Part shown: positions 57,382 through 61,050 of the stretch, in pieces
How positions within the stretch are numbered: position 1 is the stretch's first letter
Layout: each line of letters opens with the position of its first letter
Origin: Streptomyces sp. PTY087I2
GTDB taxonomy: Bacteria > Actinomycetota > Actinomycetes > Streptomycetales > Streptomycetaceae
NCBI RefSeq assembly: GCF_001687325.1
Contig: NZ_LZRD01000008.1
Span: forward strand, 124,001 to 188,000
Direction: 5' to 3'
DNA length: 64,000 nt
Notes under the pieces: model-generated
What the model saw: the letters and a program-made list of their open reading frames with translations, nothing else
Told to the model about the DNA's origin: nothing
The model's database searches: none
Translations under genes and position numbers: made by a program

Positions 57382-58515
57382 TTACGCCTCCGCGACCGCT
57401 TCCCGTACGTCGGCCTCCGCGGTCCCTTCGATGGCGGGCTCCGGTACGTAACGGAGCACGCCCCACATGGCGCGCTCGGTGTCCGAGGCGTCGGGCCCCG
57501 GCCCCGGCTCCGCGCGGCAAGCGGCCAGCGAGGCCACCAGCGCTTCGGCGTCGATGCCCGCGCCGATCATGACGAGCTGGGTGAGCCGCTGCTCGCCGCG
57601 CGCCCACGGCCGGGGGACGAAGCGCAGGAACCGGCCGACCGCGTGCAGGGCATAGGAGTTGTCCCGGTCCCCCGCGCCGAAGTCGACGAACCCCTTGATC
57701 CGGTAGAGCCCTTCGGGCCGGGAGTCGAGGAAGGCCATGAAGCGGCGCGGGTCCATCGGCACGTCGGCGGTGAAGTCGACGCTCTCGTACGCCGCGTGCA
57801 GGTGGTCGGCGTGCCCGTGCCCGTCGCACTCCTCGTGCTCGTCGCACTCCTCCTGGCGCAGCAGGTCCTCGAAGCTCAGCTGACCCGCCATCTCCTCGCC
57901 GTCCGGCCGCAGCGCGGGGTCGAAGAGCAGCTCGGGATCGATCCGGCCGTGCTCGGCGGAGATCACGGCGGCGGGGCCGCTCAGCTCCGCGACCGTCGCC
58001 CGCAGCCGCTCCCGTTCGGCCTCCCCCACCCGGTCGGTCTTGTTCAGGACGACGAGGTCGGCGACGGCGAGATGACGGTCGAGCTCGGGGTGCCGCTGCC
58101 GGGTGGAATCGAACTCCGCCGCGTCGACGACCTCGACGAGGCCTCCGTACAGGATGTGCGGGTTGTCGCTGGCCAGCAGCATCCGGACGAGCTCCTGGGG
58201 TTCGGCCAGTCCGCTCGCCTCGATGACGATCACGTCCAGCCGGGCGGACGGCCGGGTCAGCGTCTCCAGGAAGGTGTCGAGTTCGCTCGCGTCCACGGCG
58301 CAGCACAGGCAGCCGTTGCCCAGCGAGACCGTCGAGCCGACCTGGCCCGAGACGGTCATGGCGTCGATCTCGATGGCCCCGAAGTCGTTGACGATCACGC
58401 CGATCCGGGTGCCCGCCCGGTTGCGGAGCAGATGGTTCAGGAGCGTGGTCTTGCCGGAGCCGAGGAAGCCCGCCAGGACGACGACCGGGATCTGCGGGGT
58501 ACGGGGCGGGGTCAA
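57382..58515 (-). CDS. CobW/COG0523 GTPase with His-rich metal segment
   Basis: 377 residues. P-loop [11 protein letters not shown] at about 14-24, the family metal motif GCLCC (CxCC) near 66-70, switch region EASGLAEP, and NKTD for guanine. A stretch ECDEHEECDGHGHADHLH around 218-235 is rich in His/Cys/Asp and suits zinc, cobalt or nickel binding. The C-terminal CobW_C domain follows. The start is probably TTG at 58515 with GGAAGG upstream, just after the citrate synthase stop. COG0523 proteins insert or hand over metals, often under zinc limitation. Confidence 0.86.
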   Translation of the reverse strand: MTPPRTPQIPVVVLAGFLGSGKTTLLNHLLRNRAGTRIGVIVNDFGAIEIDAMTVSGQVGSTVSLGNGCLCCAVDASELDTFLETLTRPSARLDVIVIEASGLAEPQELVRMLLASDNPHILYGGLVEVVDAAEFDSTRQRHPELDRHLAVADLVVLNKTDRVGEAERERLRATVAELSGPAAVISAEHGRIDPELLFDPALRPDGEEMAGQLSFEDLLRQEECDEHEECDGHGHADHLHAAYESVDFTADVPMDPRRFMAFLDSRPEGLYRIKGFVDFGAGDRDNSYALHAVGRFLRFVPRPWARGEQRLTQLVMIGAGIDAEALVASLAACRAEPGPGPDASDTERAMWGVLRYVPEPAIEGTAEADVREAVAEA

Positions 58516-58538
58516 CGGGGGCCTTCCTGGGAGCGTCG

Positions 58539-59693
58539 TCAGGGTGCCGGGACCGGCTGCGGCGGGGGTGCGCCGACGTAGCGGGCCGCCGGGCGGATGA
58601 TCTTCGAGTCCTCCGCCTGCTCCAGGATATTGGCGCTCCAGCCGATCACCCGCGCCGCACAGAAGGTGGGGGTGAACATCGCGCGCGGCAGCCCGCACAG
58701 CTCCATGACCACCCCGGCGTAGAACTCCACGTTGGTATGCAGCTCCCGGCCCGGCTTGAGCTCGGCGAGGATCGCCTCGACCTGGGCCTCCACCTCCACG
58801 GCGAAGTCGACGAGCGGGCCGCCGAAGCCCTGGGCGATCGACTTGAGCATCCGGGAGCGCGGGTCCTCGGTGCGGTAGACGGGGTGGCCGAAGCCCATGA
58901 TGCGGCGGCCGGAGAGGACCTGTTCGCGGATCCAGCCGTCGATGCGGTCCGGGGTGCCGATGGCGTCCAGGGTGTCCAGGGCCCGGCTGGGGGCTCCGCC
59001 GTGCAGCGGTCCGGAGAGCGCGCCGACCGCCGCCACCAGGCAGGCGGCCAGGTCGGCTCCGGTGGAGGCGACGACGCGGGCGGTGAAGGTGGAGGCGTTG
59101 AAGCCGTGGTCGACGGTCGAGACGAGGTACTGCTCGATCGCTCGTACCTGCTCGGGCCCGGGCTCCGAACCGGTCAGCATGTACAGGTAGTTCGCGGCGT
59201 GCGGCAGGTCCGCGCGGGGTGCGACCGGCTCCAGTCCCTGGCCGAGGCGGTGGAGGGCGGTCAGGATCGTGGGCACGGCCGCGCAGACGGCGAGCGCGTC
59301 CTCGCGTCGGCGCCCGGCGTCGATGTCGTACACCGGGCGGAAGCCGGCCGACGCTCCGAGCAGGGAGAGCGCGGTGCGGAGTCCCGCGAGGGGGCCCGAG
59401 ACGGCGCTCGCGCGGGCGATGGCGGGCAGGGCCTCGGTGACGTCGGCGGGGAGTGTGCGCAGGCTCGCCGTACGGGCCGCGAAGTCGGCGGCCGCGGCCC
59501 GGTCGGGCAGCTCCCCGTGGAACATCAGGTACCACACGTCCTCGAAGCCGCGGGTCTGCGCCAGCTCGATCGCCGAGTACTGGCGGTAGTGGTAGAAGCC
59601 TTCGCGGCCACGGACGTCGCCGAGGGCGGTGTCGGTGACGACGACACCGGCGAGGCCACGGGGGACGGCGGGGGCGACAGGGGTGCTGGTCAT
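58539..59693 (-). CDS. Citrate synthase/methylcitrate synthase-like enzyme
   Basis: 384 residues, type I citrate synthase fold. His231 in GPLHGGAPSR and His270 in GFGHPVYRTEDPR match the two catalytic histidines. The usual Asp in NVDF is Glu323 (NVEFYAGVV), as I recall for the actinobacterial CitA-like subgroup, so activity may be lower or substrate altered. It should condense oxaloacetate with acetyl- or propionyl-CoA. The ATG at 59693 faces the HTH-citrate synthase gene across a 109-base repeat-rich promoter. The COG0523 GTPase follows after 23 bases. Confidence 0.88.
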   Translation of the reverse strand: MTSTPVAPAVPRGLAGVVVTDTALGDVRGREGFYHYRQYSAIELAQTRGFEDVWYLMFHGELPDRAAAADFAARTASLRTLPADVTEALPAIARASAVSGPLAGLRTALSLLGASAGFRPVYDIDAGRRREDALAVCAAVPTILTALHRLGQGLEPVAPRADLPHAANYLYMLTGSEPGPEQVRAIEQYLVSTVDHGFNASTFTARVVASTGADLAACLVAAVGALSGPLHGGAPSRALDTLDAIGTPDRIDGWIREQVLSGRRIMGFGHPVYRTEDPRSRMLKSIAQGFGGPLVDFAVEVEAQVEAILAELKPGRELHTNVEFYAGVVMELCGLPRAMFTPTFCAARVIGWSANILEQAEDSKIIRPAARYVGAPPPQPVPAP

Positions 59694-59715: not shown

Positions 59716-59776
59716 AACATTGATTCGACTGTCCATGCTTGACTGAAAATCTGTCAATGTTGATTGAATCAATGTT
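59716..59776. promoter_or_regulatory. AACATTGA/TCAATGTT repeat cluster between the citrate synthase genes
   Basis: AACATTGATTC at 59716-59726 and its inverse GAATCAATGTT at 59766-59776 flank a third copy, TCAATGTT, at 59754-59761; the last two are direct repeats 15 bases apart. TTGAC/GTCAA also form an inverted pair at 59739-59757, overlapping likely -35 elements. This is the whole shared promoter, so the repeats are probable operators, possibly for the HTH domain of the rightward citrate synthase. Confidence 0.6.
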
Positions 59777-59802
59777 CATGCGGAGTGGATACGGTGGTTT
59801 CC

Positions 59803-61050
59803 ATGACGGATCAACCAGAGCCCGAGCGGCACGAAGCGTCCCGGCTCACCACCCGGCAGGCGGCCGAACTGCTGGGCGTGAAGCCGGAGACGGTGTACGC
59901 CTACGTCAGCCGGGGCCAGCTGAGCAGCGTGCGGGCCGCCGGGGGCCGGGGCAGCACGTTCGACGCCGAGGAGGTCCGGGCGCTGGCGCGGCGTTCGGGG
60001 CGCCGGGACCCGTCCCCGGGCGGGGGCGACCTCGCCTTCCGGACGGGCATCACGCTCATCGAGGGCGACCGGTGCTACTTCCGCGGGGTCGACGCGACGG
60101 AGCTGGCCCGGCGGTACGGCTACGAGGAGGTCGCGAAGTGGCTGTGGACGGGCGAGCTGCGGCCCGGCGCCCGGTTCGCCGCGTCCGCCGGGACCCTCGC
60201 GGCGGCGCGCAGGGCGGTCGAGGCGCTGCCCGCGCACAGCGGGTCGACGGACCGGCTGCGGGTGGCGGTGACGGCTGCCGCGGCCACGGATCCGCTGCGG
60301 TTCGACCTGTCGCCGGAGGCGGTGCTGAACAGTGCGCGGGGCCTGATCCCGACGCTGGTGGGCGCGTTGCCGGTGCTGGGCGGTCCGGCGGCCGAAGGGG
60401 GTTCGCTGGCGGCGGAGCTGTGGTCACGGCTCACCGCGGAGCCGGCCGACGCCCCTTCCCTCGCGGTGCTGGACGCGGCCCTGGCGCTGCTGGTCGACCA
60501 CGACCTGGCGGCCTCCACCCTGGCCGCCCGGGTCGCCGCCTCCGCGCGGGCCCATCCGTACGCGGTGGTCTCGGCGGGCCTCGGCGTGCTGGAGGGGCCG
60601 CTGCACGGTGCGGCGAGCGGGCTGGCGCACCGGCTGCTCCGGGAAGCGGTGGACCGGGGCAGTGCGGTCCCCGTGGTCGCCGACCATCTGCGGACCGGGC
60701 GGCGGGTGCCCGGCCTGGGCCACCGGCTGTACCGGGGCGAGGACCCCCGGGCGACGGTCCTGTTCGAGCTGCTGGCGGAGGTGCCGCAGGCGGCCGGGGC
60801 GCTGGCGGCGGCCCGTGAGGTGGTGGCCACGACGGCGCGGCACGCTCCGCTGCACGCCAACATCGACCTGGCGCTGGCCGTCCTGTCGGTCTCCCGGGGG
60901 ATGGCGGCGGACGCGGGCGAGACGGTGTTCGCAGTGTCCCGTATGGCGGGCTGGATCGCCCACGCACTGGAGGAGTACGGGGAGCGCCCGCTCCGCATCC
61001 GGCCGAGCGGGCAGTACGTCGGCCCCCGGCCGCCCCAGCCGCTCCTCTGA
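59803..61050 (+). CDS. Citrate synthase with N-terminal helix-turn-helix domain
   Basis: 415 residues. Residues 14-62 form a MerR/excisionase-like helix-turn-helix: LTTRQAAELLGVKPETVYAYVSRGQLSSVRAAG followed by a wing-like part. The remainder is a citrate synthase fold with His268 in GPLHGAAS, His307 in GLGHRLYRGEDPR and Asp355 in HANIDLALA, so catalytic positions are kept. It diverges from a normal citrate synthase gene with probable operators between. Inferred: a regulator that senses oxaloacetate, acyl-CoA or citrate through an enzyme domain. A moonlighting active enzyme is an alternative. Confidence 0.8.
   Translation: MTDQPEPERHEASRLTTRQAAELLGVKPETVYAYVSRGQLSSVRAAGGRGSTFDAEEVRALARRSGRRDPSPGGGDLAFRTGITLIEGDRCYFRGVDATELARRYGYEEVAKWLWTGELRPGARFAASAGTLAAARRAVEALPAHSGSTDRLRVAVTAAAATDPLRFDLSPEAVLNSARGLIPTLVGALPVLGGPAAEGGSLAAELWSRLTAEPADAPSLAVLDAALALLVDHDLAASTLAARVAASARAHPYAVVSAGLGVLEGPLHGAASGLAHRLLREAVDRGSAVPVVADHLRTGRRVPGLGHRLYRGEDPRATVLFELLAEVPQAAGALAAAREVVATTARHAPLHANIDLALAVLSVSRGMAADAGETVFAVSRMAGWIAHALEEYGERPLRIRPSGQYVGPRPPQPLL

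Follow-up and report, generated by a model that had tools for sequence, protein, structure and literature searches.

A citrate synthase fold joined to a winged helix-turn-helix domain: a candidate family of one-component regulators paired with citrate-forming enzymes

Several bacterial regulators join a helix-turn-helix (HTH) domain to a whole enzyme fold. MocR/PdxR proteins combine a GntR HTH with an aminotransferase fold, and ROK repressors an HTH with a sugar-kinase fold. At the entry point of the tricarboxylic acid (TCA) cycle there are, to our knowledge, few dedicated sensors of oxaloacetate or citrate; the CitR regulator of Bacillus subtilis belongs to the LysR type. In Caulobacter, CitB (CCNA_03757) complements an E. 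coli delta-gltA strain and CitC (CCNA_03758) fails to do so (PMC7083601); the part of that paper considered here presents both solely as citrate synthase (CS) paralogues, without mention of an HTH in CitC or of regulation by CitC. In Streptomyces coelicolor, SCO5831 and SCO5832 (citA3/citA4) are annotated as two putative citrate synthases; a probe of their intergenic region is EMSA-positive with MtrA, and their expression is higher in an mtrA mutant (PMC12323332). BldC, in turn, binds direct repeats head-to-tail (PMC5859096). No description of a family of HTH-citrate synthase regulators was found in the open-access literature searched.

Here we analyse a gene pair of Streptomyces sp. PTY087I2 within a window of 64,000 nucleotides, which is the whole stretch of DNA studied (Table 1). 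One gene encodes a protein, HTH-CS, that the initial annotation had read as a MerR/excisionase-type HTH fused to a CS fold with His268, His307 and Asp355, and Pfam, NCBIfam and the translation agree with this reading. The Pfam profile HTH_17 matches residues 15-64 with 35.4 bits (cut-off 27) and Citrate_synt (PF00285) residues 78-401 with 202.5 bits (cut-off 27), while MerR is passed narrowly (28.5 against 28.2) and MerR_1 is also marginal (22 against 21.6). From NCBIfam, the cut-off of the excisionase domain 'excise' (TIGR01764) is passed (30.1 against 28.8) and that of the BldC family NF033787 is missed (26 bits against 77), as are the curated CS cut-offs of cit_synth_II (158 bits against 421) and PRK12350 (148.8 against 332). 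The AlphaFold2 model has a mean pLDDT of 93.0 and lacks the C-terminal antiparallel coiled coil of the MerR type, the CS domain coming after the HTH. Foldseek (E 1.6e-15) places it nearest to solved structures of citrate and 2-methylcitrate synthases, and the best VIA-align Z is 36.9, with an rmsd of 3.0 over 339 residues. Among solved structures searched with phmmer, phage Xis 4j2n and 6amk/6ama, the latter taken here to be BldC, come nearest to the HTH sequence (E ~0.002). Within this HTH, the recognition segment TVYAYVSRG is nearly invariant and belongs to the most conserved stretches of HTH-CS proteins.

Table 1. Positions of the features discussed, numbered from the first nucleotide of the window
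Feature	Position	Strand	Basis or remark
Partner CS, 384 aa, Glu323 replaces catalytic Asp, B. subtilis CitA-like	58539-59693	-	Translation, Pfam, alignment, tree
Left repeat AACATTGATTC	59716-59726		Only the TTGATTCGACTGTC part kept, only in Streptomyces; overlaps MtrA-type site
Equivalent of the S. coelicolor MtrA site TTGACTTAACTGTCCA, here TTGATTCGACTGTCCA	59720-59735		PMC12323332, matched by eye
Putative -35 of partner CS (TTGACA), overlaps operator	59752-59757	-	Conserved in Streptomyces; consensus reading only
Conserved operator TCAATGTTGATTGAATCAATGTT: dyad TTGAT-TGA-ATCAA + third half-site	59754-59776		Sequence, cross-locus conservation
Putative -10 of HTH-CS (TACGGT), 7 nt before ATG	59790-59795	+	GATACGGTG conserved in Streptomyces orthologues; consensus reading only
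HTH-CS gene, winged HTH + CS fold	59803-61050	+	Translation from ATG, 415 aa
DNA-binding domain (excisionase/BldC/MerR-type winged HTH), residues 13-65	59839-59997	+	Pfam, NCBIfam, AlphaFold2, phmmer
Low-confidence linker, residues 66-77, probably flexible	59998-60033	+	pLDDT <50 at residues 68-74
CS fold domain, residues 78-409	60034-61029	+	Pfam, alignment, VIA-align
Catalytic codons of His268; His307; Asp355	60604-60606; 60721-60723; 60865-60867	+	HTH-CS translation

The divergent neighbour had been described as a normal citrate synthase. A divergent CS is indeed encoded there, but the adjective is loose, given the glutamate at its catalytic aspartate position. The same substitution is found across phyla in 46 of 47 aligned partner enzymes, and likewise in B. 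subtilis CitA (2c6x), which clusters with them in the tree (support 94). The idea that Glu-type synthases are peculiar to this gene pair was dropped, since a paralogue in the same genome (L004) and others have NVEF; the 8.16-Mb source genome holds five Pfam citrate synthase genes. The glutamate seems to be functional, as the Caulobacter homologue CitB, assigned by synteny, works in E. coli. Directly downstream of the partner CS, possibly in one operon, lies a gene for a CobW/COG0523 GTPase with a His-rich stretch (57385-58518, minus strand), and degenerate CobW-like remnants follow the CS in a Streptomyces genome devoid of HTH-CS (G027, locus L039).

The region between the two genes had been noted for three copies of TCAATGTT. 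All of them are present, at 59754-59761, at 59769-59776 and, as the reverse complement, at 59716-59723; the right-hand pair falls in an operator conserved across phyla, but the left copy lies outside it and was dropped as an operator part for want of conservation beyond Streptomyces. Orthologues in this genus share the core TTGATTCGACTGTCCATGcTTGACTnnnnnnCTGTCAATATTGATTGAATCAATRT, of which the right part alone persists family-wide, as TCAAYnTTGAT, 3-7 nt and ATCAAY. The TTGATTCGACTGTCCA element, conserved in Streptomyces only, overlaps a putative -10 of the partner CS gene. The position of the putative -10 of HTH-CS suggests that its mRNA may be leaderless. A scan of the promoter with Rfam gave no match.

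Dyad spacing differs between loci by 3-4 bp, a step that does not amount to a helical turn. By consensus matches only, one group of loci, L185 and L143 among them, has a promoter register of 19-20 bp with TTGTCA and a TATAAT-like hexamer, and the remaining ones have 15-18 bp; the -10 column is only weakly TATAAT-like (A2 in 10/26, T6 in 10/26), so that a MerR-like 19-20 bp geometry is no more than suggestive. Among loci placed in the tree, the 19-20 bp register goes with a mainly proteobacterial/Rubrobacter-type clade and the 16-18 bp register with an actinobacterial one, L077 and L119, outside the tree, being likely exceptions.

How closely this operator follows HTH-CS was assessed in a non-redundant set of 81 HTH-CS loci (75% protein identity). 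The pattern TCAAYnTTGAT-N3-7-ATCAAY occurs within 250 bp upstream of HTH-CS in 70 of them, the other 11 having no recognisable operator upstream of the gene; downstream regions gave 0, and shuffled sets averaged 0-0.05 loci. The count is not circular, because the loci were picked by protein. In the source genome, the TTGATTNNATCAAT dyad with up to one mismatch is found at a single other place (C17:10884), and the search for a wider regulon beyond the locus yielded none apart from this near-match. A strict operator 20-mer is present, once each, in 14 of 61 genomes of relatives. All 14 carry HTH-CS, and 13 of the matches lie directly upstream of it, the last being the rearranged locus described below; the 16 Streptomyces without HTH-CS among those 61 genomes all lack the 20-mer.

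Losses and rearrangements provide natural experiments on this association. HTH-CS is missing from 43 of 121 sampled Streptomyces genomes, and only one of these (G027) still has the partner CS. In that genome the operator has disappeared and a TGTCCATGGCTGA remnant remains; as this is one case, a single deletion could have taken both HTH-CS and operator. In another genome (G032, L254) the pair is now in tandem and each gene has its own operator copy: the CS is preceded by TGTCAATATTGATTGGATCAATAT and has lost the GATACGGTG box, while HTH-CS has TGTTAATATTGATCCAATCAATAT upstream, followed by its GATACGGTG box, with the TTGATTCGAC part decayed. Both genes thus retained an operator once they were separated.

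The divergent partner is also exchanged, and most of the loci concerned retain the operator. It is an HMGL-like enzyme of the homocitrate/isopropylmalate-synthase family at loci of Streptosporangiales, Actinomadura, Nonomuraea, Thermoactinospora and Ktedonobacter, and in Actinoplanes a CS from another clade of the tree. The HMGL-like superfamily includes Re-citrate synthase, and the partners at L139, L147, L154, L158, L162, L130 and L206 are candidates for such an enzyme replacing the CS. Divergent from HTH-CS and its operator, a family III CoA-transferase is encoded in a Burkholderia MAG and in Pseudomonas (L183, L213), and a 2-hydroxyacid dehydrogenase stands divergent from HTH-CS in Comamonadaceae/Variovorax (L199/L208); these two kinds of partner suggest a diversified ligand or target. 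In genus g238 of the same family (L119-L122), HTH-CS and operator occur with a divergent gene that by eye is possibly DUF2332-like. Control of HTH-CS and its neighbour through the repeats, as initially proposed, is strongly supported by these comparisons: the cross-phylum operator, its co-loss, the rearrangement and the partner swaps.

The genome scan returned at least 80 HTH-CS loci. Among the matches listed, they belong to Actinomycetota, Pseudomonadota (Alpha-, Beta- and Gammaproteobacteria), Acidobacteriota, Gemmatimonadota, Chloroflexota and Myxococcota, and a divergent CS stands beside HTH-CS in 62 of 80, the figure being 63 of 81 in the non-redundant set. The same gene pair with the same operator, apparently undescribed, thus occurs in at least six bacterial phyla. 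A tree of 122 sequences, built by a quick method, unites all 65 HTH-CS proteins in one clade with an SH-aLRT of 100; their origin is single.

It had also been suggested that the CS domain directly senses oxaloacetate, acyl-CoA or citrate. We take H233, R316, R380 and R400 of HTH-CS to be the equivalents of the oxaloacetate ligands H238, R329, R401 and R421' of pig CS, the last contributed by the opposite subunit; in the same way, H268, H307 and D355 would correspond to its catalytic H274, H320 and D375, and R311 to the position of the CoA-phosphate Arg. The oxaloacetate/citrate pocket (H233, R316, R380, R400) is invariant in 65 of 65 HTH-CS proteins and the catalytic residues are present in 64 of 65, pocket residues being near-invariant across 30-76% identity. 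On the CoA side, by contrast, R311 is replaced by Pro in 31 of 65, while 19 have Arg or Lys there; DHxxN retains its Asn in 23 of 65 against 47 of 47 partner enzymes, and the KPG-type loop seen in the partner CS is missing in all 65. These relaxed positions disfavour acyl-CoA, which appears the least likely ligand, and a ligand of the oxaloacetate/citrate type is favoured over it. Support for sensing by the CS domain is indirect: it comes from these pocket residues and from Caulobacter CitC, an HTH-CS by synteny that shows no CS activity in E. coli.

From the computed domain architecture, gene pairing, operator conservation and co-loss, and pocket conservation, we infer DNA binding to the operator, binding as a dimer, the ligand type and the sign of control. 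We think that HTH-CS is quite probably a one-component regulator in which a CS-derived sensor of the oxaloacetate/citrate type controls HTH-CS itself and the adjacent citrate-forming enzyme. The CS dimer would be the sensor body, with an N-terminal winged HTH on each subunit; the invariant equivalent of R421' suggests that the dimeric state persists, and a dyad would then be faced by two HTHs. The dimer would bind TTGAT-N3-ATCAA (59754-59776) between the divergent genes, overlapping the promoter elements of both, and could thereby exert autoregulation and control of the adjacent enzyme. Symmetric binding is not assured, because the nearest solved HTHs include BldC, a head-to-tail binder (PMC5859096). 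The retained active site would take up oxaloacetate, citrate or a closely related 2-oxo/tricarboxylate compound. In its simplest form both promoters would be repressed, oxaloacetate or citrate altering the affinity; alternatively, the protein might activate by distorting the DNA, since the promoter spacer that holds the dyad at distant loci is 19-20 bp long, like that of MerR promoters. In a wider sense, we lean towards one multi-phylum transcription factor family of single origin, a CS turned into an oxaloacetate/citrate sensor with one operator language (TTGAT...ATCAA), which would switch citrate entry into the TCA cycle whichever enzyme, CS or homocitrate/isopropylmalate-synthase-type, serves locally.

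The kept catalytic residues make a residual or altered catalysis by HTH-CS possible, and they are the starting point of a different reading: a trigger enzyme, like PutA or BirA, that functions as a citrate synthase (or one for methylcitrate or another acyl-citrate) and also represses its own locus. Besides His268, His307 and Asp355 in 64 of 65 proteins, it could account for the fact that HTH-CS keeps the catalytic Asp where the partner has Glu, and for closest folds that are citrate and 2-methylcitrate synthases. The relaxed CoA side (R311, KPG-type loop, DHxxN Asn) argues against it, and so does Caulobacter. Nearly all of 31 sampled genomes of this genus carry a gltA-type CS and an adjacent CS/HTH-CS pair. 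The operator TCAATCTTGATCAATATAATCAAT occurs in Caulobacter genomes, in the form TCAATCTTGATC(A/G)ATATAATCAAT at all six loci examined. Compared with B. subtilis CitA, the CS is 35-42% and HTH-CS 27-34% identical, some of the alignments being partial, and PMC7083601 gives 37% for citB and 32% for citC; by synteny and these matching identity ranks, CitC is very probably HTH-CS. Its failure to complement delta-gltA speaks against a working synthase, even if it could reflect poor expression. On balance, we consider a trigger enzyme unlikely.

The binding of MtrA to the SCO5831-SCO5832 probe and the raised citA3/citA4 expression in the mtrA mutant (PMC12323332) might mean that the repeats serve another regulator and that HTH-CS acts elsewhere or regulates nothing. 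The reported MtrA site aligns, however, to 59720-59735, beside the conserved operator and outside it; moreover, the operator goes with HTH-CS in phyla whose sets of regulators are unrelated, is lost along with it, and accompanies each gene after rearrangement, which leaves this explanation highly improbable. Strict co-inheritance of HTH-CS and partner CS in Streptomyces would also fit a regulatory subunit that forms hetero-oligomers with the partner, the HTH being incidental or a weak DNA binder. We give this almost no credence, as the partner in Streptosporangiales-type and Ktedonobacter loci is an unrelated HMGL-like enzyme with the operator kept, and the recognition segment of the HTH is among the most conserved parts of the protein.

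If the preferred reading of HTH-CS as a CS-derived regulator is true, there is a widespread family of oxaloacetate/citrate sensors with a readable operator, which would explain the extra, seemingly redundant 'citrate synthase' of many bacteria and set right a widespread annotation error that is carried into metabolic models. Such proteins could also be a source of compact genetically encoded biosensors for oxaloacetate or citrate.

Among the described systems, SCO5831/SCO5832 of S. coelicolor is a Streptomyces locus that shares this intergenic core, and Caulobacter CitC/CitB corresponds by synteny to the HTH-CS/CS pair, with the operator present. In B. subtilis CitR/CitA, as here, a Glu-type CS adjoins its own dedicated regulator, but CitR, being LysR-type, is without a CS fold. 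BldC and phage excisionase (6amk/6ama, 4j2n) offer the closest solved HTH sequences; unlike HTH-CS, they are small stand-alone proteins without a ligand domain. Like HTH-CS, MocR/PdxR and ROK proteins place an HTH on a whole enzyme fold that acts as sensor, often divergent from the controlled enzyme gene, and they differ in having another enzyme fold and another HTH type. In our opinion, HTH-CS would represent a new, apparently undescribed family of enzyme-fold one-component regulators, of the kind known from MocR and ROK.
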